DNA of 64,000 bases from assembly GCF_009497775.1 (NCBI RefSeq), contig NZ_CP031012.1:1550001-1614000 (forward strand), written 5' to 3'. How positions within the stretch are numbered: the stretch's first letter is position 1; the number at the start of each line of letters is the position of its first letter. The translations under genes and the position numbers were made by a program. The notes beneath the pieces are model-generated. The model searched no databases and was not told the origin of the DNA. It worked only from the letters and a program-made list of their open reading frames with translations. Below are positions 911 through 39,084 of the stretch, in pieces. Origin of the DNA: Alcaligenes faecalis. Lineage in GTDB: Bacteria > Pseudomonadota > Gammaproteobacteria > Burkholderiales > Burkholderiaceae_B.

Positions 911-1140
911 GTTTTTGCTTCCCATCCGCTCTCACCCCAGACCACACAAGAGCGTTCCAGCTCATGGCACAGGGATGCATATCCGTTATTGAAATGACCG
1001 TGGGTAGAGGTTTTGTGCAGGAGCACGCGCACCTCTTGGTCATGGCGAAGGGTAAAAAATTGCCCCGGTTCGATGTGTCGAAGGCGGGGCAGGGGTTTGC
1101 TGCCTTTGTGGCGTGTGTGCAGTTCTTCACTGAGGGCCAT
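907..1140 (-). CDS. Phage hypothetical protein downstream of RT
   Basis: 77 residues, MALSEELHTRHKGSK onward. The start at 1140 is supported by an AGGAG six to seven bases upstream and by a 14-base overlap with the 3' end of the reverse transcriptase gene. An in-frame ATG at 1191 would lie deep inside RT. It contains HIEPGQFFTLRHDQEVRVLL and a late Cys. No family recognised. It is the first gene after the DGR cassette in the same transcription unit. Confidence 0.5.
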   Translation of the reverse strand: MALSEELHTRHKGSKPLPRLRHIEPGQFFTLRHDQEVRVLLHKTSTHGHFNNGYASLCHELERSCVVWGESGWEAKT

Positions 1141-2239
1141 GTGGCGCTCCTGATTTTCGATATGCTTTGGTTGCATCCCAGGCGATGGCATGGCCGCGCT
1201 TTCTGGCTGCGGCGCTTACTTTTGCTCTGTCTCTGTACCCGTTGCTGTGCCGCATGAGCCCCAGATAGCTGTTGATTGTTTCCAGCGACTTGTCAGTCGG
1301 TACGGTTTCTATGCGGTTTAGTGCGGTGCGAACAGAGCGACGGCGCACCTGACGACGCCAGGGCTTGATAACGTGGCCAGCGAAGTCCACGCCTCTGTTG
1401 ATGGGTTGAAGGATTGTCTTGGTAGGGTTGAGTTGTAGGCCCAAGGTCGGCAAATACTCATTGATGCTTGCCAGGGCTTCATTCAGCCACTGAGGCGAGT
1501 CATGCAAAAGAACGAAGTCATCGACATAACGCACGTAGTGTTTGCATCGAATACGGTGTTTGACATGCTGATCCAGCCCATCAAGCAGCACGTTTGCAAA
1601 GAATTGGCTGCTCAAGTTGCCAATGGGTAACCCATGGTGCCGTGGTGCAGTCATCAGGTGCTTGTGTGGTGGAACGAGCTGCAGCAGCGCCTGCTCCCCG
1701 CGTATCTCCACGTTGTTGCGTGGGTCGTGAAATAAGATCAGCTTAGCCAGCATGCGCCACCAGCGTTCCGGTATGTGCTTGGCGAGCATCGGCCAGACCA
1801 CTCGTTTGTCGATGCTCACGAAAAAGTTGGCCAAGTCACATTTCAGATAGAACCCCGGCTTACTCCAGTTCTGCGTCTGGCTCCTGATCTTGGTTTCCAA
1901 CCGCTTGGCGGCGTACAGGGTGCCACGACCAGGGATGCAAGCACTGGAGTCGGCAATAAAGCGCCGGTAAAACCGTTCCGAGATCTGGTTATAGAGCAGG
2001 TGGTGCACAATCCGATCACGGAAATCAGCCGCCCACACCTCTCGCGGCTTGGGTCTTGTAATAACAAAGCAGATGGACCGGCCTGGGCTGTAATCCCCGG
2101 TCACCAGATCATCATGTAGCTCCAGCAAGTTGCGCTCCAGATCTCGCTCAAACATAAGGGCGCTTGCTGTGTTGCGTTTCAAGCGTCGGCAGGTGAAATA
2201 CGCCTGCACCAGCAACTCGAACGAATAGCCAGTATCCAT
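1127..2239 (-). CDS. DGR reverse transcriptase
   Basis: 370-residue RNA-dependent DNA polymerase that copies the template RNA into adenine-mutated cDNA. Core RT motifs are visible in order: DFRDRIVHHLL, the palm strand YLKCDLANFFVSID, then GLPIGNLSSQFFANVLLDGL, the catalytic YVRYVDDFVLL, and a later LNPTKT/FAGHVIKPW. The IGN(L)xSQ form of motif 4 is characteristic of DGR-type RTs and differs from the QGxPxSP of group II introns. No maturase or endonuclease domain follows, and the length matches the DGR family. The start at 2239 (MDTGYSFELL) is preferred: the frame stays open to 2341, but that extension only reads through the template repeat out of its coding frame. The 3' end overlaps the next gene. 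Order target-avd-TR-RT matches the Bordetella phage BPP-1 DGR. Confidence 0.95.
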   Translation of the reverse strand: MDTGYSFELLVQAYFTCRRLKRNTASALMFERDLERNLLELHDDLVTGDYSPGRSICFVITRPKPREVWAADFRDRIVHHLLYNQISERFYRRFIADSSACIPGRGTLYAAKRLETKIRSQTQNWSKPGFYLKCDLANFFVSIDKRVVWPMLAKHIPERWWRMLAKLILFHDPRNNVEIRGEQALLQLVPPHKHLMTAPRHHGLPIGNLSSQFFANVLLDGLDQHVKHRIRCKHYVRYVDDFVLLHDSPQWLNEALASINEYLPTLGLQLNPTKTILQPINRGVDFAGHVIKPWRRQVRRRSVRTALNRIETVPTDKSLETINSYLGLMRHSNGYRDRAKVSAAARKRGHAIAWDATKAYRKSGAPHGPQ

Positions 2240-2258
2240 AGAAGCTCTCGGTTCAGTT

Positions 2259-2336
2259 TGCGGAAAGGGCGGACACGGAACTCGTTGTTTCGGTTGTTGT
2301 TGTTCACGTTTCCGTTCTCGAAATCGACCGCCCAGG
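2259..2336 (-). repeat. DGR template repeat (TR)
   Basis: A 78-base segment between avd and RT that aligns without gaps to VR1, VR2 and VR3. Read in the VR frame on the minus strand it would encode WAVDFE, then a core with eight AAC (Asn) codons, then EFRVRPFR. AAC-rich templates are the hallmark of DGR TRs because adenines are the mutable positions. At its 3' end TR continues CCGCAA where all three VRs have CCGCAG, the expected IMH*/IMH difference that makes homing one-way. It is presumably transcribed with the operon as the RNA template. Confidence 0.95.
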
Positions 2337-2398
2337 TTCATTCGAGCTATTCACATCGGCCCAGCGAGACTTTGGCTCATTGAGCGGACTGCGCAGGA

Positions 2399-2860
2399 TC
2401 ACCCCGACTGCTGCCGTCGATATCCTTGTTGCGCCTGGCGGTGGGCTTGTGGCCCAGCGGCTCGACCAGATTGATTGGCGCGTTGTCCGGTCTGCCTTGG
2501 CAAACCGGCATCAAGCGCACGTTCCGAGTGTTTCTGCCATCCGGTAGCTTGCTTGCCGACGCTATCCGTGAGGGCTATGGCTTGGGCATACTGCCCGCGT
2601 GAAATAAGGCGCAGGTCCACTGACAACCGCAATGACAGATTCACCGCCTCAACTTCTTGTCGCATTTTGCGCAGAATGTCGGTCCGATCGTCTGAGGTGT
2701 TTGCCTCATAAACCCGCATGACCAGATCCATGCAGCGGCGGCGCAGTTCCGCGCCGAAATCCGCTTTGTAGTTCCTGGGCATGTTGGAGACCAACTGCGT
2801 GACGAGCTGACACAGTGAATAAGTGGCTTTGTATATTGCGGTGTCGGTGTGAAGTGCCAT
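2399..2860 (-). CDS. avd: DGR accessory variability determinant (Avd)
   Basis: 153-residue basic helical protein resembling the pentameric four-helix-bundle Avd that binds RT and template RNA and is required for mutagenic cDNA synthesis. Seen: the N-terminal IYKATYSLCQLVTQLVSNMP, PRNYKADFGAELRRRCMDLV and IYEAN-like segments typical of Avd/S23-family bundles, then DILRKMRQEVEAVNLSLRLS. The last ~40 residues are a Gln/Arg-rich tail that is longer than usual and probably disordered. It lies between target 1 and TR, as in BPP-1. The start has an AAGG just upstream. Confidence 0.85.
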   Translation of the reverse strand: MALHTDTAIYKATYSLCQLVTQLVSNMPRNYKADFGAELRRRCMDLVMRVYEANTSDDRTDILRKMRQEVEAVNLSLRLSVDLRLISRGQYAQAIALTDSVGKQATGWQKHSERALDAGLPRQTGQRANQSGRAAGPQAHRQAQQGYRRQQSG

Positions 2861-2869
2861 GCCTTTACT

Positions 2870-2885
2870 GCGGGCTGACGCCCGC
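2870..2885. other. GC-rich hairpin downstream of VR1 (DGR target-site hairpin candidate)
   Basis: GCGGGC-TGAC-GCCCGC: a perfect six-pair stem with a four-base loop, 30 bases beyond the 3' end of VR1 on the coding strand and before avd. DGR target sites often have such a stem with a tetraloop just after VR, which increases homing. The loop (GTCA on the coding strand) does not match the common GRNA pattern, so the assignment is tentative. Confidence 0.55.
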
Positions 2886-2892
2886 TAAATAG

Positions 2893-3318
2893 TTAAATGG
2901 ATGAAGCGACAATGCTGCGGAAAGGGCGGACACGGAACTCGCCGTACCGGAGGCTGCTGAACACGCTCCCGGTCTCGACACCGACCGCCCAGGGATAGTC
3001 ATGGTGCTCAGAGCGGGACCAGTAAATGCTGTCCCAGCCCTCGCGCACAAACTGCTCTGGTGCATTGATGTAGGCCAGCATCAGATCCTCTTGCTCCGGC
3101 GCTCGCCAGTCGGTATGGCCGTTAATATCACCAACGTTTGCTACTGCCTTGTCCACGTTCTTGAACTCGACCTTTTCAATGTCAGATTCAATGCCCGCAG
3201 CAATGATGATGTGGTGGGCCGCGCCATCGATCAGGCGTTTGCCAATGTAAACGCCGCCTTGCTCGGGCCATCTTTGTCCGAGGTCCGGGGCGCGGGAAAT
3301 GGTTTCATTGGTGCTCAT
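2893..3318 (-). CDS. DGR target protein 1 (DUF1566/C-type-lectin-like)
   Basis: 141 residues. The N-terminal half carries QGGVYIGKRLIDG, as in the other two targets, followed by DWRAPEQEDLMLAYINAPEQF and the lectin-like core YWSRSEHHDYPWAVGVETG. The last ~30 residues are VR1, ending EFRVRPFR plus a seven-residue tail. DUF1566 has the C-type-lectin/formylglycine-generating-enzyme fold, the usual scaffold for DGR-variable binding sites. There is no signal peptide or membrane segment. AGGAG lies seven bases before the ATG. The variable residues read T, S, F, S, S, L, Y, G where TR would give Asn. Ligand unknown. Confidence 0.85.
   Translation of the reverse strand: MSTNETISRAPDLGQRWPEQGGVYIGKRLIDGAAHHIIIAAGIESDIEKVEFKNVDKAVANVGDINGHTDWRAPEQEDLMLAYINAPEQFVREGWDSIYWSRSEHHDYPWAVGVETGSVFSSLRYGEFRVRPFRSIVASSI
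2916..2993 (-). repeat. DGR variable repeat VR1
   Basis: 78 bases aligned to TR without gaps. Fourteen substitutions fall at TR adenines, including GAT to GGT and silent GGA to GGG and CGA to CGG. One substitution (TTC to GTC) is at a thymine near the 5' end of the repeat. Both flanks match the other VRs. Confidence 0.92.
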
Positions 3319-3354
3319 TGGGTGGCTCCTGTGCCGAAGTAAAGGGGTAAAGCG

Positions 3355-3912
3355 TTAAATGGCGAATCTGCGGAAAGGGCGGACACGGAACTCGCGGTAT
3401 CGGAAGTCGCGGTACACGAGCCCGAGCTCGAAATCGACCGCCCAGGGATAAGAACCACGCAGGCTGCTGGTCCAGTACCAGCTCGATTTCTCGAACAGGT
3501 CTGGCACGTTTGCCAGGGCAATCATCATTTCGCGCCGGGATGGCAGATAGAAATCACAATGGCCGTCAGCTTCGTAGTCGCTGGCCAGCTTGGCGGCAGG
3601 GTATTTGTCGCGCAGGGTGTTGGTATTGCTCAAGCCGTCCCAGTCGGACAGATCAAGGCTGCCATCTGGGCCCCAGGCTGCGGTCCCGACGTCCTTGGGT
3701 TGCGGGATGATCAGGCCGTACAGCACGCCGTCACCGCCTTGGATGTCACCAGCGTAGATACCTCCCTGACCGGCGAGGTATTCACCGATCTTGTGGCGAC
3801 CTGGGGCGGGTGCAGTTGTTTGTTTCAGGCTGCCGATCAATTTCTCAGCAACTGTATGGGTAGGTAGCGCGAGCATGGCTCCGCCACCCAAATCGAATTG
3901 GACTGTGTTCAT
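3355..3912 (-). CDS. DGR target protein 2 (DUF1566/C-type-lectin-like)
   Basis: 185 residues from the ATG at 3912 (MNTVQFDLGGGAM). Layout: a ~45-residue N-terminal region, then GQGGIYAGDIQGGDG, a middle with DFYLPSRREMMIALANVPDLF, then the lectin core YWTSSLRGSYPWAVDFE and VR2, ending EFRVRPFRRFAI. The N-terminal 'TVAEKLIGSLK' stretch resembles the 'VPLLKLLALL' stretch of target 3, so the two may share an assembly or attachment segment. It sits just downstream of the SSB gene and 36 bases upstream of target 1. No export signal. The variable residues read L, L, Y, R, D, F, Y, R. Confidence 0.85.
   Translation of the reverse strand: MNTVQFDLGGGAMLALPTHTVAEKLIGSLKQTTAPAPGRHKIGEYLAGQGGIYAGDIQGGDGVLYGLIIPQPKDVGTAAWGPDGSLDLSDWDGLSNTNTLRDKYPAAKLASDYEADGHCDFYLPSRREMMIALANVPDLFEKSSWYWTSSLRGSYPWAVDFELGLVYRDFRYREFRVRPFRRFAI
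3369..3446 (-). repeat. DGR variable repeat VR2
   Basis: 78 bases aligned to TR without gaps. All fourteen substitutions are at TR adenines, including a silent GGA to GGG. No other position differs. Unlike VR1 and VR3, no obvious GC-rich hairpin follows it. Confidence 0.94.
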
Positions 3913-4003
3913 TGCTTGGGATTCCTTGTCGGGAGATTGCCCCGAAGGGCTGTTGGTAGGCGGCACGGCACTGAATCAAATCAGCGCTCTAGGCCGTGTC
4001 GCC

Positions 4004-4525
4004 TCAATTAAAAGGTATGTCGTCGTCCATATCGGCAAGGTTGTCCGACATAGGAGCGTTATTACGTGGAGCCTGTTGTTGCTGCTGTTGCTGAGGCGCT
4101 GGGCGCTGAGCACGTTGTGGAGCTGGTGCACCACCACCGCGGCCACCGTATTCGCCACCACCCATGCTGCCGCCGCCCATATCACCACCGTCACGGCCAC
4201 CCAGCATTTGCATTTGCTCGGCAATGATCTCGGTCGTGAAACGCTCCTGACCATCCTGGCCCGTCCATTTACGGGTACGCAGGCGACCTTCTACGTAGAC
4301 GGGACGGCCTTTGCGCAGGTACTCACTCGCGATTTCAGCCAGACGGTTGTAGAACACGACTCGATGCCATTCCACTTCCTCGCGGCGCTCGCCCGAGGTA
4401 CGGTCTTTCCACTGCGAAGTCGTGGCAATGGAAATATTGCAGATGGCCGAACCTTCCGCGCTGTAGCGTACTTCTGGGTCGCGGCCGAGGTTGCCCACCA
4501 AAATGACTTTGTTGACTGAGGCCAT
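4004..4525 (-). CDS. ssb: Single-stranded DNA-binding protein
   Basis: 173-residue SSB. N-terminal OB fold: [40 protein letters not shown] and [11 protein letters not shown]. It is followed by a disordered Gly/Gln/Pro linker (a run of glutamines, GGG repeats) and the acidic tip DMDDDIPFN that recruits partner proteins. It is the third gene of the phage recombination set (ERF, exonuclease, SSB) and binds single strands produced by the exonuclease. It is likely a phage copy, although close to bacterial SSB. Its start immediately follows the end of the exonuclease gene. Confidence 0.93.
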
Positions 4526-5161
4526 TTATGCGGCCTCCAGCAGGGCGTCCCGCAGTTCGTGCTGATACTTGGTGACTGTCCGCTCAAACTCCATCAGATC
4601 GGATTCAAGTAAGTCGATCTGGTTGTCGTCGCGCTCGATGCGAATGATCTTCATGCGGCCTAGGTCATGAACCCACAAGACCAGATCCACCCATTTACGG
4701 CCGAGCAACCACATTGCACCATTGCATTGGTCTACGTAGGCGGCAATATCGCCGTTCACAAACGCGGTGAACAGAGTGTCGCTGCTGACCATCGTCTTGA
4801 TCTCAATGATTCCGTCCTGGCCAACTAGACCGTCCACGCTAACCCCAAACAGGCGGTCAGGCGTCGTGATGAAACCGGCCTCGTCAACAATGTGCCCGGT
4901 CTTGCGCTCATAGACAGCACGGGCGTAGGGTTCTTGCTCTGTGCCAAGGCGCATAGCGCCGTTCACAAAGACCTGCATAGGTTCGCCGCCTTCACGCTCT
5001 CGGGCCACATCCATGGCGTAGTCCAAGCACTTCTTAGAAGGGGCTCCGCTTTTCAGGCGGTCGCGGCAGTCTTTGAAACGGCTGCCAGTTATGACGCCCT
5101 TGCGGGCCTGGAGCCATTCCGGGGTGCCCTGTTCGGCGGTGTGAATGATTAAGCCTTCCAT
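4526..5161 (-). CDS. YqaJ/lambda-Exo-type recombination exonuclease
   Basis: 211 residues of the PD-(D/E)xK nuclease family that makes 3' overhangs for strand annealing. Visible: EWLQARKGVITGSRF at the N-terminus, GTEQEPYARAVYERKTG, then the active-site set FGVSVDGLVG followed by IIEIKTM (Asp and ExK). A C-terminal helix is typical of YqaJ proteins. The start codon overlaps the stop of the ERF gene upstream, so exonuclease and annealase are coupled, as in lambda exo/bet. Confidence 0.88.
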   Translation of the reverse strand: MEGLIIHTAEQGTPEWLQARKGVITGSRFKDCRDRLKSGAPSKKCLDYAMDVAREREGGEPMQVFVNGAMRLGTEQEPYARAVYERKTGHIVDEAGFITTPDRLFGVSVDGLVGQDGIIEIKTMVSSDTLFTAFVNGDIAAYVDQCNGAMWLLGRKWVDLVLWVHDLGRMKIIRIERDDNQIDLLESDLMEFERTVTKYQHELRDALLEAA

Positions 5162-5898
5162 TATTGAGCCTCCGTGAGCATCTTTTTCTTGTCCGATACG
5201 GCCTTTTTGAAGGCGTTGTAATCAGCAAGGTTGTTGGTTGCGTAAATGACGTTGCCGCCTTCCTGCCAGATGGTTTCCAACCGCTCCAGCGTTTCGGCTT
5301 TGGCCACTTCGCTGATCCAAGATTCTTTCAGTGCAGGATCCGCCGGCGCTCGGCCATCGGTGTCGTCGTCCTGCTCGGACAAGCCGGTAATGGCCTTCAA
5401 GGTGTAGCGTTCCAAGTAGGTTTTGGTACTGGCGCGGGACTGAATGGCGTTGCGGCCTGGGCCAGTATCTGGCGGCCCGCCCATGCTTACACTTTCTTGG
5501 TGGCCGCCAACGTGCCGCAGGTAGCAGGTGACCTCCATCCAGTCTTTGTCATCCTTGGTCAGCTTCCAACTGGACGAAAGCCCGTGCTTGGATAGGGCAG
5601 GGGTGACTGCATTTACAACGTCATGCAGTTCGGCGTACTTCTGATTCTTAAGCGGGCCATCGGAACGGGCCTTGCCCTTGATGATTGTGACTGACTCGGC
5701 CTTGAATGCAGCGAACGCCTCGTCATAAGCTTTCTTGGCCTGTGTTGCGTTGTAGCGATCCTGCAGGTCCATCATTTGTCCGATTTGCTCAGGGCTCATT
5801 CCAGACTGTAGGGCGGCGATTGCCATGGCCATCGGTGACCCGGCTGGGGCGGGGGCTGCGGTAGCAGCCTGTGGGGCTTCAATGATTTCTGTGCTCAT
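5161..5898 (-). CDS. erf: ERF-family single-strand annealing protein
   Basis: 245 residues. After an Ala/Pro-rich N-terminus comes the ERF core: NQKYAELHDVVNAVTPALSKHGLSSSW, EVTCYLRHVGGH and TYLERYTLKAITGL. ERF proteins (P22 Erf type) anneal complementary single strands and circularise phage DNA. The start at 5898 (MSTEIIEAPQ) has GAGGA upstream; the frame is open further but without support. Next to the exonuclease and SSB it completes a two-component recombinase module. Confidence 0.88.
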   Translation of the reverse strand: MSTEIIEAPQAATAAPAPAGSPMAMAIAALQSGMSPEQIGQMMDLQDRYNATQAKKAYDEAFAAFKAESVTIIKGKARSDGPLKNQKYAELHDVVNAVTPALSKHGLSSSWKLTKDDKDWMEVTCYLRHVGGHQESVSMGGPPDTGPGRNAIQSRASTKTYLERYTLKAITGLSEQDDDTDGRAPADPALKESWISEVAKAETLERLETIWQEGGNVIYATNNLADYNAFKKAVSDKKKMLTEAQ

Positions 5899-5909
5899 GA
5901 TGTCCTCAA

Positions 5910-6977
5910 TTAATACTGGATTCGGATAGCCGGGATCAGGCCCTTGGCGATCAGAATGACGGCTTGCTTGGCGCACTCGTCGGGCATGCCGTTTTCGATG
6001 AAGGCAGCCAGGGCGGCATTGTTGATGCTGGCCTTGTGTGCGATATCGGCCTCGCGTTTCTGCTGTGCAGCTTCTACTGCCGCCTTTTCGTCGGCCTGGC
6101 GCTTGATTTCCCCCTGGCGGGCGGCTTCGGCGGCATCCTTGGCGCGTTGCTCTGCGGCCAGCTTTTCAGCTTCGGCTCGGGCCTCAGCTTGTTTCTGGCG
6201 TTCGATGGCTTCGGCCCGTTCCCGCTCAGCCTGTTCTGCGGCCGCCCTGGCATCGGCTTCACGTTTTGCGGCGGCATCCCGTTCAGCCTGGGCTTTGGCT
6301 TCCGCGTCGGCTCGGGCCTTCTCAGTCGCTTGCCGGGCAATCTCGGCTTCGCGGTCTTTTTGCTCCTGCTCGGCCTGCTTGCGGCGTAACTCGGCCAGTT
6401 CCGCCTGTTCGGCTTCGTACTTCTGGCGTTCAGCCAGGGCTGAGTTCAGGATTTCCAGAGCCTTGGCTTTGACCCGGTGGGCCTCGGCTTCAAACTCTTC
6501 CCAAGCCTCGTCCATCACCACAGACTCAACCACTGCGATGCGCTGGCGCAGGGATTCAACATCAAGCCCACCGACTTCTCGGGCTTGATCAGCCATACCG
6601 TCCAGGTCGGCACGGTGTAGCGCTACCCGGCTGGCCTCTGCTTCTTCCCATTCCGTCAGCGGCTTGCGTACCTCGTCGGCCAGTGCGTCCAGCGTTTCCC
6701 GCATGCGCTTGCGTTCAGCGTCGATCAGCTTGGGGATTTCCTTTAGCCGGTCCACCTGCTCTTTGCCCAGGCCGTCCAAGGCGGTTTTGATCTTGCGCAC
6801 CTTGAACGCTCGGCTTGCAATCGCGTCACGACCTTTCTTTGTTTTCAAGTCCGATTCGTGCCCAGTCACTTCCTGGCGGATGCGCTCAATGTACGGGTCC
6901 AGGCCGTTCGCTGTTTGGTAGATTTGCAGTGCTGTTTCTACTGGGGGGAGTTCCGTCAACTCTAAAACTTCGTTCAT
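5910..6977 (-). CDS. Long coiled-coil phage protein (DUF1351-like)
   Basis: 355 residues. The N-terminal third, with HESDLKTKKGRDAIASRAFK and DRLKEIPKLIDAERKRMRET, resembles DUF1351-type proteins found beside phage recombinases. The centre (about residues 170-310) is an uninterrupted charged helix with repeated AE/KA/QA heptads, clearly a coiled coil. The last 40 residues form a small domain ending GLIPAIRIQY. The start at 6977 has GGAG at good spacing; the ATG 12 bases upstream is too close to it. Precise role unknown; probably accessory to recombination or replication. Confidence 0.7.
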   Translation of the reverse strand: MNEVLELTELPPVETALQIYQTANGLDPYIERIRQEVTGHESDLKTKKGRDAIASRAFKVRKIKTALDGLGKEQVDRLKEIPKLIDAERKRMRETLDALADEVRKPLTEWEEAEASRVALHRADLDGMADQAREVGGLDVESLRQRIAVVESVVMDEAWEEFEAEAHRVKAKALEILNSALAERQKYEAEQAELAELRRKQAEQEQKDREAEIARQATEKARADAEAKAQAERDAAAKREADARAAAEQAERERAEAIERQKQAEARAEAEKLAAEQRAKDAAEAARQGEIKRQADEKAAVEAAQQKREADIAHKASINNAALAAFIENGMPDECAKQAVILIAKGLIPAIRIQY

Positions 6978-6978
6978 G

Positions 6979-7167
6979 TCATGCTCCAATCGCTCGGGCC
7001 GCCAGAGTCGGGCCGAAAAAAAGCAGTCCGCAGACTGCTATGGCAATGAGTAGGGTGAGGGGCCAGCCCCACGGAGGTGTGCTGCTATTTGGTGCGTAGC
7101 ATCCCCGTCCGTCGAAAGGGTTACGGCGACGAGTGCGGGGGAAGCCGGGGTTTTGGCTATGAGGCAT
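6979..7167 (-). CDS. Small single-pass membrane protein
   Basis: 62 residues from ATG 7167, with AAGGAGA upstream. The N-terminal half is Pro/Arg-rich (NPGFPRTRRRNPFDGRG). It is followed by one clear transmembrane segment (WPLTLLIAIAVCGLLFFGP). The start lies inside the 3' end of the upstream gene and the stop is next to the coiled-coil gene. No family recognised. Confidence 0.5.
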   Translation of the reverse strand: MPHSQNPGFPRTRRRNPFDGRGCYAPNSSTPPWGWPLTLLIAIAVCGLLFFGPTLAARAIGA

Positions 7168-7405
7168 CAGGCTCTCCTTGGCTTCGTGCGCGTAACATGG
7201 CGTCGGCCATCCGATACGACCATTGAGCAACATCGTTAATCGGCGTGTCATTGGGATTCGGGTTTGCCTGCCAGCCCTGCATTGCCTTGGCCGCGAAGTA
7301 ATCACGCAAGGTCATGCCGTCGCAAGGAGCCATTCCTTGCCAAGGCTCCCCTGGGTTAAGAGGAACAGGAAACGCTGGTCCACCATCTTTAATTGGCTCT
7401 GTCAT
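7157..7405 (-). CDS. Phage hypothetical protein (MTLRDYFAAKAMQG type)
   Basis: 82 residues. It begins MTEPIKDGGPAFPVPLN and contains DGMTLRDYFAAKAMQGW and WSYRMADAMLRAR, a pattern found in many prophage early operons, where the function is unknown. The ATG overlaps the stop of the 38-residue gene upstream (ATGA). Confidence 0.75.
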   Translation of the reverse strand: MTEPIKDGGPAFPVPLNPGEPWQGMAPCDGMTLRDYFAAKAMQGWQANPNPNDTPINDVAQWSYRMADAMLRARSQGEPDAS

Positions 7406-7518
7406 GGCTGTCTCCAGATACTGATTACTTCTGAAATTAGGTAAGCAAAGCCCATGCAGCCAAAAACGATGGCGAGCACTGTGACTATGCCGAGAATGAA
7501 AGCAGCCAGGTCTAGCAC
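7402..7518 (-). CDS. 38-residue single-pass membrane protein
   Basis: A GTG start at 7518 overlaps the stop of the preceding gene and its TGA overlaps the ATG of the next, so it is coupled at both ends. The peptide VLDLAAFILGIVTVLAIVF onward is one hydrophobic helix with a short tail ISEVISIWRQP. Small membrane peptides in phage early operons can alter host membrane or defence proteins, but nothing in the sequence says which. Confidence 0.5.
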   Translation of the reverse strand: MLDLAAFILGIVTVLAIVFGCMGFAYLISEVISIWRQP

Positions 7519-7871
7519 GGCAGCGCCTCCAGTTCCTGCGTGGTCATGGCGTCATGACTGGCGTCGGCCCAGCTTTGAATGAGTGCTAGAAGATGCGCGT
7601 TCAGGCCGTCCCGATATACGGGGTCATGATTCAGAACACTCTTCACAAATGGCCCGATTGCATCGGATTTCTCATAAGCGATCATTTGGTCGTTCAGCAC
7701 TTCCAGCAGATCGGCCCGTGATTTCAGGTTTGCTGGTGTGGGAAAGCCCCACGACATCAGCACTGAGGTGGTGTCGCCTTTGAGGCAGTTGCGGATCTGC
7801 TCCGCGATATAGGCGCGGCGGCGCTCCGCCAGCTCGTACGCGTCTATCTCACGCATAGCAAAAGCGTTCAT
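7512..7871 (-). CDS. Phage hypothetical protein
   Basis: 119 residues, mostly helical. It starts MNAFAMREIDAYELAERRRA and has KSRADLLEVLNDQMIAYEKS and a C-terminal helix DAMTTQELEALPC. Not recognised. It is the upstream end of a coupled four-gene cluster leading to the coiled-coil protein. Confidence 0.6.
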   Translation of the reverse strand: MNAFAMREIDAYELAERRRAYIAEQIRNCLKGDTTSVLMSWGFPTPANLKSRADLLEVLNDQMIAYEKSDAIGPFVKSVLNHDPVYRDGLNAHLLALIQSWADASHDAMTTQELEALPC

Positions 7872-8216
7872 GTTTAGCTCCGGGGATTGCGCCGAAACCC
7901 GGCGCTTGAAAATAGGAAGAGGGTTAGCTTGTGGCCACCACCTTCACGTCCGGTGCGCACCGGAGCGGTATTGGTGGAGTTCCAGAGTTCTATGCCCTCT
8001 GATAGCAGCCCTTGATCGGATAAAGCACCGTTGCTCGGACTTCACACGTATGGAGGGGTTGGGGTTTGCTGCCGTCGCTAACACGACAGCCAAGGACCGC
8101 TATCAGAAGGGATTGATGGTCCGGCATACCCTGCCGGATGGGGCCTGAGCCTGATTGCTCCAAAACCAGCTTTGCAGGCATTGAACTCTCCGGCTTCGCC
8201 GGAAAATACTGAATTG
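7872..8216. other. 345-bp gap between target 3 and the next gene
   Basis: Holds the VR3-proximal hairpin and one weak minus-strand frame (7990-8181, 63 residues from MPAKLVLEQS) with no ribosome binding site or recognisable domain. I do not call it a gene. No terminator with a T-run is seen, so the leftward transcript probably reads from target 3 into the downstream operon. Confidence 0.5.
8190..8204. other. Hairpin downstream of VR3 (DGR target-site hairpin candidate)
   Basis: TCCGGC-TTC-GCCGGA: a six-pair perfect stem 26 bases beyond the 3' end of VR3, in almost the same position as the hairpin after VR1. A matching structure at two of three targets supports a role in target recognition rather than termination, since no T-run follows on either strand. 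Confidence 0.55.
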
Positions 8217-8687
8217 CTAAATGGACAATCTGCGGAAAGGGCGGACACGGAACTCGAGGAGACGGTTGCTGATGCTCACGCCACCGTGCTCGAAATCGAC
8301 CGCCCAGGGGTAGCTGCCTCGCTCGGTGCTGGTCCAGTGATATTCCTGATCAAACAGGGCTTTGGCATGCACTAAAGCAACCATCGCCTCGTCTTTGGTC
8401 GGCAGGCGCCAGTCAAGAAAGCCACCGCCTTTGTAGCGGGATGCCTCCACCTTGGCCGTTTCCCATTCATGGCTGCCCAGGGATTCTTTGGCTGCAATCA
8501 GGTGCACCAGTTGTCCATCTTCAACCATGGGGCCAACGTAAATACCGCCTTGCAGCTCGGAGCCGATGGCGGCAGGTAGGCCTGCAGGCGCTGCAACCGG
8601 CTCTTCGTTTGCCAGCAAAGCCAGCAGCTTAAGCAGCGGTACAGCCAAGGTCTGGCCGGGGATCTGAATGTTCACGCTCTGTGTCAT
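8217..8687 (-). CDS. DGR target protein 3, remote (DUF1566/C-type-lectin-like)
   Basis: 156 residues. N-terminus with NIQIPGQTLAVPLLKLLALL, then LQGGIYVGPMVEDG, the DUF1566 signature FLDWRLPTKDEAMVALVHAK, YHWTSTERGSYPWAVDFE and VR3, ending EFRVRPFRRLSI. It is about 6 kb from the RT, separated by the recombination genes, so the DGR acts on it in trans or at distance. It is the first substantial gene of the leftward operon. The variable residues read H, G, S, I, S, N, L, L. No signal peptide. A 26-residue coupled ORF precedes it. Confidence 0.85.
   Translation of the reverse strand: MTQSVNIQIPGQTLAVPLLKLLALLANEEPVAAPAGLPAAIGSELQGGIYVGPMVEDGQLVHLIAAKESLGSHEWETAKVEASRYKGGGFLDWRLPTKDEAMVALVHAKALFDQEYHWTSTERGSYPWAVDFEHGGVSISNRLLEFRVRPFRRLSI
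8231..8308 (-). repeat. DGR variable repeat VR3
   Basis: 78 bases aligned to TR without gaps. All twelve substitutions are at TR adenines, including silent GGA to GGT and CGA to CGT. One of the eight AAC codons is unchanged. No other position differs. Confidence 0.94.
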
Positions 8688-8764
8688 GCCTGTTCCTTTT
8701 CCTGTTTGTCATGCTTGCCCGGGAAATCGCTGGGCCAGCGCATTGGTTTGTCCTGCTGTTGCAT
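8684..8764 (-). CDS. 26-residue ORF coupled to DGR target 3
   Basis: ATG at 8764 is preceded by a good AGGAGA. It encodes MQQQDKPMRWPSDFPGKHDK and a short charged tail. Its TGA overlaps the target 3 start (ATGA). It may be a small protein or act as a leader that feeds ribosomes to target 3. It is too short to classify. Confidence 0.4.
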   Translation of the reverse strand: MQQQDKPMRWPSDFPGKHDKQEKEQA

Positions 8765-9092
8765 GTCTATCTCCTATTTATCCGTCAGCACCCTGAGTCA
8801 AGATGCTGGTGGATAACCGCTGCGCTCCTGGCTACTCCCAGCCAAGCTGGCTCCAGGTAGCGCAACGTACTAAATCCCCACGTCACGGGTTGTCCGTCTC
8901 ACTCTTTATCAGGGGGTGTGGGGATGCGCCCTGGGCCTAGCCGTGCACGTTCGCACCATTGGCCTGTTTATCGCTTTGCTGATTTTTAAAGAGCCTCCGC
9001 CTTAGCGGGCGCAGCCTTTGCTGCTGGCGCTCTCTCTAACTGCCTTGGTTGGGCTTTGGCCTAAACCGGCTGTTTGGTGAAGCGTTAGATGA
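8765..9092. other. Untranslated leader of the leftward early operon
   Basis: About 330 bases between the PL promoter and the first ORF without a convincing gene. Several short GC-rich inverted repeats occur (for example AGCCA-GCT-TGGCT near 8850), but no N-type antiterminator gene. Such long leaders in lambdoid phages carry antitermination or RNA-processing sites; none can be named here. Confidence 0.4.
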
Positions 9093-9133
9093 ATTACACC
9101 AAATGGTGAATTGATTGTCAACACCAAATGGTG
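9093..9133 (-). promoter_or_regulatory. PL promoter with two repressor operators
   Basis: On the minus strand a perfect -35 TTGACA (9121-9116) is followed by a 17-base spacer and -10 TGTAAT (9098-9093). Two copies of CACCAAATGGTG lie at 9097-9108 (in the spacer) and 9122-9133 (just upstream of -35), with centres 25 bases apart. The same near-palindrome occurs at the right operator. A repressor bound there would block the promoter that drives the recombination and DGR genes, so the DGR should be largely silent in the lysogen unless another promoter exists. Confidence 0.8.
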
Positions 9134-9184
9134 AAATTGCGGGCAAAAAGAAACCCGCCGTAGCGGGTGTTGGTTTTATGTGGG

Positions 9185-9670
9185 CTATTCCCTTGAGTCT
9201 TTCCCTCTAGGGATGCTCAAAAAACCTCGGACGATCCATCCTACGATTGTTGATAGGGCATATATCGAAATCAAGAAAATCCCTATTATCTGTAGATTTT
9301 CTTTTCTAGCATCCCAAACGCCCTTCGATCTCAACTTCTCAATATCACTGCGCAGATGACCCATGAGGCGAGGGTCGGTTAAGGCCGCGACCCTTAAGTC
9401 TCTATTATTCGGCCCCAGAAGAACACCCACAAAACACCCTGTCAAAAATACGCCCTCCACTGGACTTTCACGTCCATAGACTGACTCGGAGACGCTATAA
9501 ATAGGGCATTTCTCTACCAGTGCGGGCTTATATCCGCTCTCAAATTTAATGAATGCCGCGGATGAAACACCTGGGTAGATAGTGAACCAAGCACCAATAG
9601 CCGCAACCATCGCCATCGTAATAGTCACAATGCGACGCGCACCCTCAAATACATTGAATTTCGCTTTCAT
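9185..9670 (-). CDS. Two-pass membrane protein beside the repressor
   Basis: 161 residues. A first hydrophobic segment (VTITMAMVAAIGAWFTIYPG, residues ~15-34) is followed by a ~90-residue loop with two cysteines. A second segment (LQIIGIFLISIYALSTIVGW) ends in a basic tail. It lies just downstream of the repressor gene in the same direction and ahead of PL, so it is probably expressed from PRM in the lysogen. That position is typical of superinfection-exclusion or lysogenic-conversion genes; function is not shown by sequence. Confidence 0.6.
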   Translation of the reverse strand: MKAKFNVFEGARRIVTITMAMVAAIGAWFTIYPGVSSAAFIKFESGYKPALVEKCPIYSVSESVYGRESPVEGVFLTGCFVGVLLGPNNRDLRVAALTDPRLMGHLRSDIEKLRSKGVWDARKENLQIIGIFLISIYALSTIVGWIVRGFLSIPRGKDSRE

Positions 9671-9682
9671 TATTACGGCCTT

Positions 9683-10381
9683 TTAACCCTCTCCAAATAC
9701 CTTGAATTGCATAGGCAATGCTCTCAATACGCGCCCAACAATCCTGGTTTCATATGGTCTTTCTGACCAGACCCAGGGCGGGTATCTGTCATTATCAGAC
9801 GTGACTATTATCTCTTTTCCTGGCCGAGATAAGCGTTTGCAAACCAGATCATGATCATGGACAAGTAGGTAGATCCCTTCTGATGTGTATTCATTGATAG
9901 ATGTGTCTACAAACAACAGGTCATCTGGAAGGATAGTCGGTGTCATGGAGTCCTTGGTGGCCATGATGATCTTCACTGACTTGTTTTTGTTTGTTGTGCC
10001 AAGAAGCCTTTGGGCCACGCCAAGCGGCATAGCAATCGTCGAAAGAACGTCTGGCACATCTTCGTTTCTTATTCCTGGGCCACAAGCAGCCTTGATGTCC
10101 AGCCTTTCGAAAATGGCATCATCGCCATTGGTCGAGGGTGCGTTCGATACCCGTGCCATCGGCATATCTTTTAACGGTATGTCCAACCAGCCCGCATCCA
10201 AAGTCTCATCCCACTCTTTCTCCATTGCGCGGGCCACCTTTTCACCAAACGATTTACGACCAGCAATCATGTCGCTGATCTGAGTTGGTGATCTTTTTGT
10301 GCGCGCTGCAACAGTAGATGAGCCGAACTCTGCTGCTAGAGCGGCTAAGTTTTTCCTGCGGATTTCAACAGTGCTGTCCAT
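9683..10381 (-). CDS. CI-type repressor, HTH plus S24 peptidase domain
   Basis: 232 residues from ATG 10381 (MDSTVEIRRKNLAALAAEFG). N-terminal HTH with RTKRSPTQISDMIAGRKSFG. C-terminal LexA-like peptidase with the serine in ATKDSMTPTILPDD and lysine in DLVCKRLSRPGKE. A likely autocleavage site is Cys-Gly in KAACGPGI, the rarer variant known from phi80 CI. It should hold PL and PR off by binding CACCANNTGGTG sites and be inactivated by RecA after DNA damage. The frame is open further upstream, but that would cross the operators. Confidence 0.9.
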   Translation of the reverse strand: MDSTVEIRRKNLAALAAEFGSSTVAARTKRSPTQISDMIAGRKSFGEKVARAMEKEWDETLDAGWLDIPLKDMPMARVSNAPSTNGDDAIFERLDIKAACGPGIRNEDVPDVLSTIAMPLGVAQRLLGTTNKNKSVKIIMATKDSMTPTILPDDLLFVDTSINEYTSEGIYLLVHDHDLVCKRLSRPGKEIIVTSDNDRYPPWVWSERPYETRIVGRVLRALPMQFKVFGEG

Positions 10382-10387
10382 CTCGTG

Positions 10388-10459
10388 ATTACAGCACGCA
10401 GGCACCAATTGGTGAATTCCCCATTTGGTGTTGTTTATGTTCACCGAATGGTGTATTCT
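10388..10459. promoter_or_regulatory. Right operator with PR and PRM
   Basis: Three operator copies: CACCAATTGGTG (10403-10414, perfect palindrome), CCCCATTTGGTG (10419-10430) and CACCGAATGGTG (10442-10453). PR on the plus strand: TTGTTT (10431-10436), 17-base spacer, TATTCT (10454-10459), with one operator inside the spacer and one abutting -35. PRM on the minus strand: -10 TGTAAT (10393-10388) and a weak -35 TTCACC (10416-10411). This is the lambda three-site switch arrangement. Confidence 0.75.
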
Positions 10460-10466
10460 CGAATCC

Positions 10467-10706
10467 ATGGAAAAGCTCAAAACATACCTCATGAATTTGC
10501 CGGTCATTGAACGCGAAGCTCTTGCGCTTCGCTGTGAGACTACTTGGCCGTTCTTGCGAAACATCGCATATGGGTACCGCAAAGCGGGTGAAAAGCTCAG
10601 CGCCATCTTGGAACTGGAGACTTGCGGCGCCGTAACCCGCCGCGACCTACGCCCAGACGACTGGCACCGAATCTGGCCCGAGCTGGCTGAGAAGGAGCAT
10701 GTATGA
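10467..10706 (+). CDS. cro: Cro-like repressor (YdaS type)
   Basis: 79 residues from MEKLKTYLMNLPVIEREALA. An HTH is visible around TWPFLRNIAYGYRKAGEKLS, and the C-terminal RRDLRPDDWHRIWPEL is the usual ending of YdaS/Cro-like phage proteins. It is divergent from the repressor and eight bases past PR. It should compete for the same operators and favour lytic growth. Confidence 0.8.
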   Translation: MEKLKTYLMNLPVIEREALALRCETTWPFLRNIAYGYRKAGEKLSAILELETCGAVTRRDLRPDDWHRIWPELAEKEHV

Positions 10707-31154: not shown

Positions 31155-31197
31155 ATTTTCCAAGCCCTTTTTTGGGCATCAAGTTTAGTAAATCAAA

Positions 31198-31229
31198 TCC
31201 CCACAGATCTCTGTCTAGTGGGGATTTTT
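31198..31229 (+). terminator. Terminator before tailspike
   Basis: TCCCCAC, a 13-base loop, GTGGGGA and TTTTT, immediately before the tailspike gene. A short GCCC-T6-GGGC hairpin lies just upstream. Confidence 0.7.
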
Positions 31230-31243
31230 CATGGAGTAAAGCC

Positions 31244-32554
31244 ATGTCAGTCTCTTACAGCATGCCCCGGTTTCAGGCCATTGATATGTTCGGCCGTCCA
31301 ATGGTTGGGGCGAGACTATACATATATCAGAACAAAACAACGACCCCTTCTCAAACATGGAAAGATAAGAGCCAAGCAACCAGCAATACGAATCCGATTG
31401 TTTTGGATGCGCGTGGTGAGGCCGTTATCTGGCTGGCGTCGGATCGGGCCTATACGTTTGTCCTGAGAGATATTTTTGGAGTGCTTGTATGGTCTCAAGA
31501 TGACGTTGGCTCCGGTAGCGCAGGGATGGTGGATTTTGATCAGAGCGCCAAATATCCGCCTGGCAGTATTGGGGAAAAACTCCAGCAGAGCGTATCCACT
31601 GGCAATCAACGAGGTGGGTTCGCAGTAGCTGGAGTAATTCGCCGAGATGCATCAGTGTCGCCAGATTGGACGACAATTAGCGACGCTTCTCATAAACCAA
31701 TCAACTGGGTCGGCCCAAGTGGCAGCGGAGTTGATCAACGAGTTGAATTCAAGTCTGGGCCTGTTGCGTCTTTTATTGTTTGCCCAGACGAAACGTTTGC
31801 CAAAGACGGTGTGACCGCTGGGATCAGCGGCGGAAGTGGAGCAGCGCTTATATCAATGGGCGCTCCCTGCACATTTGAAGCTGATGTAGAGAGCATCACT
31901 ATCAGTCGCTACAACGCTCGGTATTTTTCTGCCGTCAGGTTCACGGTCAGCAGAAATGCGAACACAGGGCTGATTACATTAACTCATCCAGCCACTTTCT
32001 CCCATCAGCGCCCAATAGTGCAATACCAACCCAAGAATAGCACTGGGGAGTTGCTTATTCCGCATCATGTCAGTAGTTCCGGCATTGGCGGAGGAACAAC
32101 CACCTTATTTCTGATCGGTGAGGCTGCTGGTGCAGTTATTTACACTGGCTCTCAGTGGGTGCTTGCAGCTTCGGCATGGGAATCTGCTGATGTGTCATTT
32201 GAGTACGAGGAATCGACAGGGACGTTAAAAGTAAATCACCCAAGGGTACTTTTGTCTGGCGGAGTAAGTCCAAGGGTGCAGGTTTCTTTGGGGGGGGCGC
32301 AAACTGGGGCATATTTCCTAACCGCATTCGATACATCCGAGACAAGCTTCAAAGTTCGGTTCAGGAATCACAACAACGCCATCCCAACTCTAAATGCAAA
32401 CATGGGGTTCTACTTCTCCAGGGGTATGACAGCACCGCGCAAGAATCCGGCCGGATCGATCATGGTAGACATTGGACGCGTTCATGTCGCTATGAATCAG
32501 GTGAGTGCTCCGAGTGGCAACCTTTGGTGCCTAGGCATCAACAATCTCTCTTAG
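31244..32554 (+). CDS. Tailspike/tail fibre with P22-like head-binding domain
   Basis: 436 residues from MSVSYSMPRFQAIDMFGRPM, GGAG nine bases upstream. Residues 1-95 (GARLYIYQNKTTTPSQTWKD, LDARGEAVIWLASDRAYTFV) are the head-binding domain found in P22-type tailspikes. The remainder is beta-rich and not recognised, and would bind the receptor. No DGR variable repeat or TR similarity is present here, so the DGR does not target the adsorption protein. Confidence 0.75.
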   Translation: MSVSYSMPRFQAIDMFGRPMVGARLYIYQNKTTTPSQTWKDKSQATSNTNPIVLDARGEAVIWLASDRAYTFVLRDIFGVLVWSQDDVGSGSAGMVDFDQSAKYPPGSIGEKLQQSVSTGNQRGGFAVAGVIRRDASVSPDWTTISDASHKPINWVGPSGSGVDQRVEFKSGPVASFIVCPDETFAKDGVTAGISGGSGAALISMGAPCTFEADVESITISRYNARYFSAVRFTVSRNANTGLITLTHPATFSHQRPIVQYQPKNSTGELLIPHHVSSSGIGGGTTTLFLIGEAAGAVIYTGSQWVLAASAWESADVSFEYEESTGTLKVNHPRVLLSGGVSPRVQVSLGGAQTGAYFLTAFDTSETSFKVRFRNHNNAIPTLNANMGFYFSRGMTAPRKNPAGSIMVDIGRVHVAMNQVSAPSGNLWCLGINNLS

Positions 32555-35336: not shown

Positions 35337-36035
35337 TTACGAACGCCGATAGTATTTCCGGTGTTCCACCATGGTGCCGATGATCTCAATGGCATGCTGG
35401 TCGCTGCGAATGGAAGGGTAGTCCTCGTTCAGAGGCACCAGCTCAAAGATTTCCTGCCCACCTTCATCAATGCACAAGAGACGGTATTTCTTGAAGGTGG
35501 CTTCTTCTTCGCTGTTCTTGGCGACTACATAATCACCGGGGCGGGGCGTGAGCTCGCAATCCACAATAATCCGGTCGCCTTCCTTGAAGTCCGGCAACAT
35601 GGAGTCGCCCTTGATCTGCAAGGCAAAGGAGCGCTCGGACAGGCACAGGTCCGTCAGCAGATACTCCACTTCTTCAAAGGTGAAGTTCTGACCGGGGTCC
35701 CGAAACACGCCGGCCTGCACATAGTTCAGCAGGGGGATGCGCCGCTCGCCCATCATGGCGTCCTGCACGTTGGAATCAAAACCGTGCTTGGCTCCAAAAC
35801 CATAGCCTTGCTGATCCAGGCTATGCGCTTCCAGACCCACTTCTTTTTCTATCGCTCGCGCCACTCGTTCGCCAATGCTGCGCCCACCGTTGTAGGTGGA
35901 TGACAGGTACTGGGCCAGCTGTGCCCGTGTGCGCCCAATAGAGCGCGCAAAGTCAGCCGCGTTGCCGTGCGCGCGGTCTTCAATCAGGCGTTGCAGGTTT
36001 CTGCGGCGAATCGAGTAAATATCCATACCCGACAT
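35337..36035 (-). CDS. Element 2 repressor, HTH plus S24 peptidase
   Basis: 232 residues. HTH part: NAADFARSIGRTRAQLAQYL. S24 peptidase: a likely Ala-Gly cleavage site in LLNYVQAGVFR, the serine in KGDSMLPDFKEGD and lysine in EEATFKKYRLL. It should be RecA-inactivated, so element 2 would be expressed after DNA damage. Divergent from the Cro-like gene with an operator-like palindrome between. Start unclear: ATG 36035 or 36026, neither with a good ribosome binding site. Confidence 0.9.
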   Translation of the reverse strand: MSGMDIYSIRRRNLQRLIEDRAHGNAADFARSIGRTRAQLAQYLSSTYNGGRSIGERVARAIEKEVGLEAHSLDQQGYGFGAKHGFDSNVQDAMMGERRIPLLNYVQAGVFRDPGQNFTFEEVEYLLTDLCLSERSFALQIKGDSMLPDFKEGDRIIVDCELTPRPGDYVVAKNSEEEATFKKYRLLCIDEGGQEIFELVPLNEDYPSIRSDQHAIEIIGTMVEHRKYYRRS

Positions 36036-36050
36036 TAAAACAAGAAAAAA

Positions 36051-36066
36051 CTAAACATTGGTTTAG
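36051..36066. promoter_or_regulatory. Element 2 operator candidate
   Basis: CTAAAC-ATTG-GTTTAG, a perfect inverted repeat between repressor and Cro-like gene. Further half-sites GTTTAG (36084-36089) and CTAAAC (36116-36121) and a -10-like TATACT (36097-36102) for the rightward gene are nearby. Confidence 0.55.
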
Positions 36067-36108
36067 ATATTTCTTTTCTTTACGTTTAGAACTATCTATA
36101 CTCAATGC

Positions 36109-36300
36109 ATGAACGCTAAACACATCATCGAGGAAATGGGCGGTCGCCGAGCCGTATTGCGTATCACGGGCTTGAGCAAAGGCCGCATATCTCAATGGGA
36201 GAAGGCTGGTGTCATACCGCGCGTCTGGCAACTGGTCTTCCATCACATGAACCCGGTGGTGCCCGCCCCAGCACCCAAAGAAAGCTCTAGAAATATCTAA
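36109..36300 (+). CDS. cro: Cro-like regulator of element 2
   Basis: 63 residues: MNAKHIIEEMGGRRAVLRIT, GLSKGRISQWEKAGVIPRVW, the short Cro HTH. Divergent from the repressor, likely competing for the same operator. Confidence 0.75.
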   Translation: MNAKHIIEEMGGRRAVLRITGLSKGRISQWEKAGVIPRVWQLVFHHMNPVVPAPAPKESSRNI

Positions 36301-36565
36301 GCATTTAAGGCGGGTTTGGCTTGCAAGCCACACCTGACAGATCGGCTGCGTCATGGGGTGACGCAGTTCTTGTGCCCTTGGGGCATTGCCTATCAATCGG
36401 ATGTTCCTGGCCTGTTTGGGCCAGGGGTCCTGCTGCGCGCTGCATTTTTGCAAACACATCAGCGGCGTGCGGTTTTTCAGGCGGGGGTGCCATGAAAACA
36501 CGTATTCAACACCATCGACAAGCGCTTGCTGGCTGCCGGTGGCCCACACAAGCAGGAGCGTGCCT

Positions 36566-37363
36566 ATGAGCAATATGCCGTGGTTTCGTGCCTACACCGA
36601 GATGGTGGATGACGAGAAATTGCGTCTGCTGGCCTTTGAGGACAGATGGCACTACGTGGCCTTGTTGTGCCTGAAGGGGCAGGGCGTGCTCGACAGTGGG
36701 GACACGCTGATGCTGCGCAAGGTAGCCGTCAAGCTGGGTCTGGATCTGCGCACCCTGGACGATGTGGTGCGCCGTTTAAGCGAAGTGGGCCTGATCGACC
36801 AGGACAGTTTGCAGCCTTTGGCGTGGGACAAGCGCCAGATGAAATCCGACAGCAGCGCTGAGCGGGTGGCGCGTTTTCGGGCCAGAAAAAAGCAGGAACA
36901 AGACGGTAACGAGGACAGTAACGCGTCCGTAACGTTACCGAAACGGCCAGGTAACGCGCTAGATAAAGAGACAGATAAAGAAGGAGATACAGATAAAGAA
37001 AGAGATAAAGAAAAAGCAAACGCGCGCCGCAAGGCGACTGCGCTGGAGTTTTCTGCCTGGCCTGCCGAACCCAGTGCAGAAGTGGTGGCGGATTATCTGC
37101 GCCATCGTCGCGAGATCAAGGCGCCCTTGACGCAAACCGCCCTGAACCGCCTGGGCACCGAAGCCCATCGTGCCTTGGAGATGGGCTACAGCGTGGATGA
37201 CTTTCTGGCCGAGTGCATGTTGCGTGGCTGGCGCGGGGGCAAGGCCAGTTGGCTGGAAGGCCGCAATGAGTCCCGTGCAGGGCAGGCATCCGGCTTTGAC
37301 CCCCTGGCCTATGTGAACCGTCATCGGCAACGCGAGGAGATAGACGATGTCATCGATATCTGA
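36566..37363 (+). CDS. O-like replication protein of element 2
   Basis: 265 residues from ATG 36566 with AGGAG upstream. The N-terminal MPWFRAYTEMVDDEKLRLLA and the HTH (LGLDLRTLDDVVRRLSEVGL) are of the phage replisome-organiser type. A linker (36961-37016) is a near-tandem AGATAAAGAA DNA repeat giving DK(E/T) residues. The C-terminal domain ends SGFDPLAYVNRHRQR and DDVIDI, as in element 1. The N-terminal domain differs from element 1, so the genes are mosaic. Confidence 0.75.
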   Translation: MSNMPWFRAYTEMVDDEKLRLLAFEDRWHYVALLCLKGQGVLDSGDTLMLRKVAVKLGLDLRTLDDVVRRLSEVGLIDQDSLQPLAWDKRQMKSDSSAERVARFRARKKQEQDGNEDSNASVTLPKRPGNALDKETDKEGDTDKERDKEKANARRKATALEFSAWPAEPSAEVVADYLRHRREIKAPLTQTALNRLGTEAHRALEMGYSVDDFLAECMLRGWRGGKASWLEGRNESRAGQASGFDPLAYVNRHRQREEIDDVIDI

Positions 37364-38054: not shown

Positions 38055-38061
38055 ATGAGCT

Positions 38062-38385: not shown

Positions 38386-38398
38386 AGGAGGAATACAC

Positions 38399-39024: not shown

Positions 39025-39084
39025 ATCTGCAAGCGCAATTGCAATAATGGGCGTGCAAAGTTGCGTCCAATGCAAACGAAACAA

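Follow-up and report, generated by a model that had tools for sequence, protein, structure and literature searches.

A temperate-prophage diversity-generating retroelement in Alcaligenes faecalis with three small lectin-fold target genes whose products are likely intracellular

Phage diversity-generating retroelements (DGRs) have mostly been described as changing what the tail binds. As outlined in two papers on the Bordetella phage BPP-1, a complex of the reverse transcriptase (RT) and the accessory protein Avd copies the RNA of a template repeat (TR) with errors at adenines, and the cDNA then replaces a variable repeat (VR), aided by a hairpin (PMC3240598, PMC12875486). The announcement of the Burkholderia cenocepacia phage Magia already noted a possible DGR with short target genes (PMC7883833), and the general possibility of a cytosolic VR protein that binds viral proteins has been raised (PMC10053308). 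Here, we analyze a DGR in a stretch of 64,000 nucleotides from Alcaligenes faecalis (contig NZ_CP031012.1, positions 1,550,001 to 1,614,000), referred to below as the window. It is one more DGR of a recognized kind, the one outlined for Magia; what is noteworthy is that its family is placed apart from tail genes and that some relatives have templates that look rewritten. We consider it probable that this is a complete DGR of a temperate prophage that is predicted to overwrite three small genes of lectin fold at their 3' ends, the encoded proteins likely having an intracellular role.

The element in the window

The genes follow one another on the minus strand in the order repressor, VP3 (VP, variable protein), a stretch with ERF, YqaJ, and SSB genes, VP2, VP1, avd, RT-15 RNA, TR, and RT. 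The parts of the retroelement and its targets (lengths in amino acids [aa]) are as follows.

1127..2239, minus strand: DGR reverse transcriptase, 370 aa, with motifs IGNLSSQ and YVDD; PF00078, 59.4 bits
2259..2336, minus strand: TR, 78 bases with 22 adenines and eight AAC codons, ending 19 bases before the RT start
2335..2520, minus strand: RT-15 structured RNA (RF03018), full-length match, 143.7 bits (gathering score, 82)
2399..2860, minus strand: Avd accessory protein, frame of 153 aa; PF22296, 53.9 bits (cut-off, 40); PHROG Avd, 4.1e-33
2870..2885, minus strand: hairpin 3' of VR1, stem GCGGGC, loop GTCA
2893..3318, minus strand: VP1, 141 aa, Lcl_C-like (32 bits, under the cut-off)
2916..2993, minus strand: VR1, 14/22 TR adenines and 1/56 other bases changed
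3355..3912, minus strand: VP2, 185 aa from the likely ATG, with the frame open to 3966; Lcl_C, 19.8 bits
3369..3446, minus strand: VR2, 14/22 TR adenines and 0/56 other bases changed
8189..8203, minus strand: hairpin 3' of VR3, stem TCCGGC, loop GAA
8217..8687, minus strand: VP3, 156 aa, the remote target, close to the repressor; Lcl_C, 32 bits, under the cut-off
8231..8308, minus strand: VR3, 12/22 TR adenines and 0/56 other bases changed

Pooled over the three VRs, 40 of 66 adenine cells were changed versus 1 of 168 other cells (Fisher p = 3e-26). Read in the VP frame, the changed TR codons include nine that are AAC or GAT, along with one GGA and one CGA at which a third-base change is silent; five of these six silent third-position cells had changed (GGG, GGG, and GGT; CGG, unchanged, and CGT). 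A search of the whole 4.16-Mb genome with the TR pattern (adenines free, up to three other mismatches) returned no fourth VR, although a diverged VR would escape such a search.

The RT matched PHROG 1423 reverse transcriptase (1.2e-112), and its closest solved chain was 8ub7_A (E value of 3.6e-34), which we take to be the BPP-1 RT. An SQ-type motif, as in IGNLSSQ, is a mark of DGR-type RTs. The RT most likely starts at 2239, because relatives begin aligning there, while an alternative ATG at 2341 would put the TR within the RT. Avd scored under the cut-off of the NCBIfam Avd model (55 versus 80 bits), and a search of solved structures with it gave no matching chain. The avd frame extends about 40 codons into RT-15 (2399-2520), with 153 aa versus 118 aa for the Avd of annotated relatives.

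RT-15 adjoins the TR on the 5' side, stopping where the TR starts, and overlaps the 3' end of the avd frame. It was found in all seven relatives tested as well as in the window, and it is annotated in the record of the Pseudomonas phage Cruim01 (locus L162); our literature search found no description of its function. No BPP-1-type structured spacer was found in the 19 bases between TR and RT, and in relatives, too, no more than about 40 bases lie between the end of the TR and the first matched RT residue. A structured spacer hidden in the start of the RT gene was considered and rejected, there being no raised synonymous conservation over codons 1 to 60 (126 sequences).

An earlier note on this DNA, made from the sequence alone, had aligned the TR without gaps to three 78-base VRs, and we recover them at 2916-2993, 3369-3446, and 8231-8308 with exactly its counts of differences (14, 14, and 12 at adenines and 1 elsewhere). 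The RT motifs, the presence of Avd (PF22296 and the PHROG family "Avd protein of DGR"), and the silent changes in GGA and CGA were likewise as it described. The span that it gave (1127-3446) leaves out VR3 and its gene (8217-8687), and the note missed the RT-15 RNA (2520-2335), the remoteness of the third target, and the prophage setting.

Repeats and templates in relatives

The 160 loci with related RTs that served as relatives, each designated by an L number, comprised the 80 best of 114 found in genome contigs and the 80 best of 348 found in viral contigs. Counting the window, 155 of 161 loci had at least one TR-VR pair; of the remaining six, three had little upstream DNA (L018, L037, and L129) and three had 10 kb (L049, L061, and L074). 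In the nonredundant set of 126 loci, with 289 VR hits (some gapped VRs being counted twice), TR adenines were changed in 3482 of 8310 cells (1736 to G, 1148 to T, and 598 to C) and other bases in 67 of 19961, the latter count being biased low because the finder tolerates mismatches at adenines and penalizes the others. When a different base was exempted in every second locus (81/161), adenine gave 185 hits in 79 loci, while C gave 45 in 32, G gave 28 in 23, and T gave 26 in 21, and the C, G, and T hits may include pieces of the same VRs.

The VP frames of relatives were read as the frame with the most AAC/AAT codons; a longest-open-reading-frame rule gave the expected end in only 90 of 289 VRs and was dropped. 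In the variable core, fourfold-silent TR adenines were changed in 37 of 96 cells and nonsynonymous ones in 3249 of 6426. Since silent adenines changed too, the changes arise largely irrespective of coding effect, and the argument of the earlier note from silent changes against selection on the protein extends to the whole family. None of the VR hits carried a stop before its end. Hairpins with at least six perfect pairs were present downstream of 114/288 VRs, compared with 5/126 TRs and 9/635 shuffled sequences; the window TR has none. The base after CCGCA, which is G in the VRs and A in the TR of the window's group, failed as a discriminator across the family (G in 94 of 122 TRs and in 253 of 273 VRs).

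Two relatives, L082 and L083, have TRs identical to that of the window over the 79 bases compared. In each of them, 14 of the 22 adenine sites of the VP1 VR differed from those in the window, versus 1/56 (L082) and 3/56 (L083) other sites, the remainder of the gene differing at 43/348 and 32/348 positions, respectively. For VP2, the window and L083 differed at 12/22 adenine sites, 0/56 other VR sites, and 75/480 positions in the rest of the gene. An even spread of differences over all TR bases in relatives, the outcome set beforehand as counting against a DGR, was thus not what the L082 and L083 VR1 comparison gave. Different VRs under one TR are what repeated homing from a single template would predict, although the pattern gives no date.

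TRs of ordinary relatives were stable: no reference TR adenine had changed in seven pairs differing at 5 to 22% of RT bases. A few loci behaved otherwise. L084 differed from L083 at 10 of 23 TR adenines and 1 of 56 other bases, with an RT identical over 1050 bases and 190 identical bases upstream of the TR. The same restriction to adenines was seen for L085 versus the window (13/23 adenines and 0/56 other bases), L097 versus L094 (6/27 and 0/74), and L126 versus L149 (13/33 and 0/71), giving 42/106 adenines versus 1/257 other bases for the four (p = 1e-24). In L084, L085, L097, and L126, the TR lies upstream of the RT at 10001, and the VRs carry many of the new TR letters, with further differences mostly at the remaining adenines; in L097, older TR letters persist in two of the three VRs. 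A scan of all loci found a comparable relative for 69 of 126 and an apparently rewritten TR in 4 of these 69, with a cut (at least six adenines lost, none gained, and at most one other change) that was set after the data had been seen. Among other changes, seven TR adenines were lost in L148 and six in L105.

Most simply read, these TRs were each overwritten by mutated cDNA copied from themselves; given adenine-restricted TR changes in 4/69 loci, a TR may sometimes be its own target. In BPP-1, altering the 3' end of the TR turns it into a target. Telling against self-overwriting, all four rewritten loci are metagenome contigs, two of them from one sample, and an assembly error placing a VR core between TR flanks would mimic rewriting; such an error would not alone explain why the VRs share the new TR letters. 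By exact search, each rewritten TR core was found in its own contig and in no other viral contig, so none has independent confirmation. Our literature search, chiefly of open-access texts, turned up nothing that we recognized as natural TR rewriting or as early-region targets in this DGR family.

Prophage setting and the likely role of the targets

The element that hosts the DGR is a temperate prophage, with the cassette between the repressor and integrase genes and on the strand of the recombination genes. Besides the genes listed below, an excisionase-like gene and a tyrosine integrase lie leftward of the window on the same contig and on the DGR strand (L165 14199-13816 and 14035-13064). Rightward, on the plus strand, are genes for replication, the terminase, the portal, and head and closure proteins, followed by the likely tail or appendage gene and an endolysin gene, a lambda-like arrangement for a temperate phage.

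4004..5976, minus strand: genes for SSB, YqaJ exonuclease, and ERF annealing protein, context genes in one gene run with the DGR
9683..10606, minus strand: CI-like repressor with S24 domain, context gene identified by profile matches
31172..32554, plus strand: likely prophage tail or appendage gene (PHROG appendage, 1.3e-34; tail fiber, 9.8e-06)

Two further observations concern the surroundings. A frame with hydrophobic stretches (9185-9670), between the repressor and VP3, had no NCBIfam or PADLOC family match. A second phage gene set, read from the list of open reading frames only, occupies 35337-55136, with another repressor-like frame, replication frames, a tape-measure-like frame, a frame of 2318 aa with repeats, and a second endolysin-like frame.

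A repressor gene was detected in 36 of the 125 nonredundant relatives, in every case upstream of the RT and in 35 on its strand; an integrase was detected in 43, in every case downstream and in 39 on the RT strand. Exonuclease, annealing protein, or SSB genes were found in 38 of 125, all with a same-strand match and mostly upstream. Structural genes appeared in 1 of 125 (L064, 7.4 kb off), a count that is tempered by flanks of at most 10 kb and by structural queries drawn from four phages. Seven phage isolate records were also scanned (25 kb of L162 to L164, 49.8/54.8 kb of L171, and the whole of L170, L172, and L173). The cassette lies between an annotated repressor and integrase in five of them (L162, L163, L164, L170, and L171), and all the VRs found in the seven are on the RT strand. 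As a separate observation, a remote VR lies opposite the RT strand in L142, L144, and L145, three loci with identical RT sequence, and the remote VP there overlaps a helix-turn-helix-like frame (L142 3022-3411, also in L144 and L145).

As to the targets themselves, the Lcl_C cut-off of Pfam (34.9 bits) was passed by 5 of the 10 relatives' VPs tested. The structure model of VP2 (pLDDT, 90.3; pTM, 0.76) shows a short hairpin and a helix at the N terminus, followed by a loose linker and a lectin-like domain. Its sole solved match at an E value of ≤0.001 was the C-terminal domain of Legionella Lcl (8q4e; E value of 1.4e-5), an entry also recovered by a profile search for VP2, and 15 predicted viral structures matched it at the same threshold, including stand-alone DUF1566 proteins. 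In the window VPs, the predicted lectin-like domain stands alone, with the VRs at the 3' ends of the genes and a C-type-lectin fold modeled for VP2. Among 277 complete VP frames of at least 80 aa, 15 had a strongly hydrophobic stretch, 7 had a hydrophobic start, and none had a lipobox, a test of export that is weak because the first start codon was taken and many N termini are too long.

By analogy with BPP-1, the stretch of avd, RT-15, TR, and RT would be transcribed, the RT-Avd complex would bind the TR RNA, and the cDNA copy would receive random bases opposite adenines. Replacement of VR sequence by the cDNA would then proceed from the conserved 3' end, with the hairpin assisting at VR1 and VR3. 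In BPP-1, the RT-Avd complex is recruited, and cDNA synthesis primed, by the structured spacer that separates TR from RT; since only 19 bases lie between the two here, RT-15, on the 5' side of the TR, would do the work of that spacer, which is 3' of the TR. The VPs would be made early or in the lysogen and would bind intracellular proteins of host defenses or competing phages. Their action inside the cell is likely, judging from position, size, and the absence of export signals, because the VP genes sit among apparent early genes and not tail genes.

Besides the weakness of the export test and the reach of the position survey, several points weigh against this reading. A scan for sigma-70-like promoters in 1000-10700 found 0 versus 4.4 expected, so that the "early operon" rests on layout. 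VR2 has no perfect hairpin of at least six pairs downstream. L049, L061, and L074 yielded no VR with the TR-VR finder in spite of their related RTs and 10 kb of upstream DNA, and none of the five kinds of early-type marker was found in 45 of 125 relatives. Among the isolates, L172 has only an annotated recombinase and no annotated repressor, and the annotated integrase of L173 lies on the opposite strand, 10 kb away. The viral matches to the VP2 model also include segments of proteins that carry the names tail fiber, virion structural protein, and S74-domain protein, which means that other phages also carry a domain of this type on their tails. Finally, among 26 pairs with RT identity of at least 95%, the VRs were the same or one site apart in 25, which speaks against recent activity; most of these pairs look like one record in two collections, and L109/L114 (99.3%) also share VRs. 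Near-identical pairs as proof of recent activity were therefore given up, the VRs differing widely in L083/L084 only. The complete DGR with adenine-specific mutagenesis that the earlier note had proposed is supported, while its statement that the mechanism is seen at work is not: the window is best read as a record of past mutagenesis, and activity in this strain is a prediction.

The tail-fiber matches of VP2 are also what might be expected of a tropism-switching DGR like that of BPP-1, with the VPs as virion proteins, perhaps tail-tip adaptors, whose diversity shifts host binding. As reported by Roux et al., tail proteins make up most of the viral DGR targets in their clades 1, 4, and 6 (PMC8144416), and the Magia announcement suggests a host-range change (PMC7883833). 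We nevertheless regard this alternative as unlikely. The VP genes have repressor, recombination, and integrase genes as neighbors, and the tail genes of the isolates that show them (L163, L170, L171, and L173) are on the strand opposite the cassette. With 141 to 185 aa, the VPs have no shaft or virion-binding domain recognized by family profiles or in the VP2 model, and the likely tail gene (31172-32554) is without a VR in the genome-wide TR pattern search.

The lack of promoter-like sites, the shared VRs of near-identical relatives, and an avd frame that overruns RT-15 and exceeds the annotated Avd length would all suit a relic, an element that worked formerly and is now silent or broken in this strain. 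This seems to us improbable, since all frames are open, the RT motifs are intact, and 167 of the 168 non-adenine cells in the VRs still agree with the TR, an agreement that drift would have eroded. That the RT belongs to an antiviral system of the DRT kind, with incidental repeats, is very improbable; PADLOC RT models do match it (best, a generic one at 3.9e-36, followed by DRT families), but the NCBIfam Drt scores are far under their cut-offs (e.g., 42 versus 200 bits), the RT matches PHROG 1423, and TR, VR, and Avd are present. PADLOC had no match for the VPs or Avd. Diversifying selection on duplicated genes without reverse transcription has nothing in its favor beyond the three paralogues and is ruled out as the cause of the pattern because TR adenines changed whatever the coding effect, silent ones included.

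A prophage DGR with intracellular targets remains our preferred reading. A broader proposal, which we put forward tentatively as possible rather than probable, is that a widespread lineage of temperate-phage DGRs, this one included, varies two to four small intracellular receptors, and not tails, that are produced from the region between repressor and integrase and allow a prophage to keep pace with host defenses or rival phages, and that its TRs are sometimes self-overwritten, losing adenines permanently and passing the new letters to the VRs. If the targets act inside the cell, phages would have put directed hypermutation to another use, perhaps against defenses or rivals, a question open to testing with phage isolates available from collections. 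If templates target themselves, the loss of adenines would limit the useful life of a DGR, which is checkable in related genomes and read data.

Comparison with known systems

Magia (MT701587, PMC7883833) has Avd and an RT 60% identical to that of the window, with VRs in the short lectin-fold genes 47 and 57 and the cassette likewise between repressor and integrase; its annealing protein is unlike the window's. The present scan found a third VR in Magia, in a gene adjoining Avd, namely, an unannotated VR in a hypothetical gene (L163 10900-11364; 32316-32780 in the record). The announcement text makes no comment on the early location of the targets, as far as its available part goes (PMC7883833). 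Two other records, OK094664.1 (a Shewanella phage) and OP650936.1 (Tenericutes host listed), agree in length (47902) and in RT identity and are perhaps one sequence under two names.

Cruim01 (PP179333) has an RT 63% identical to the window's, an annotated RT-15, and three VRs, with SSB and exonuclease genes upstream and an integrase downstream as in the window, but its targets are annotated as hypothetical only and other genes lie between RT and integrase. The RT-15 RNA itself (Rfam RF03018) is matched in full by the window, with no difference. BPP-1 shares with the window the order VR, avd, TR, and RT, the adenine mutagenesis, and, for VR1 and VR3, the hairpin 3' of the VR. It differs in diversifying a tail protein and in having a structured spacer between TR and RT, where the window has 19 bases and carries its structured RNA 5' of the TR instead.

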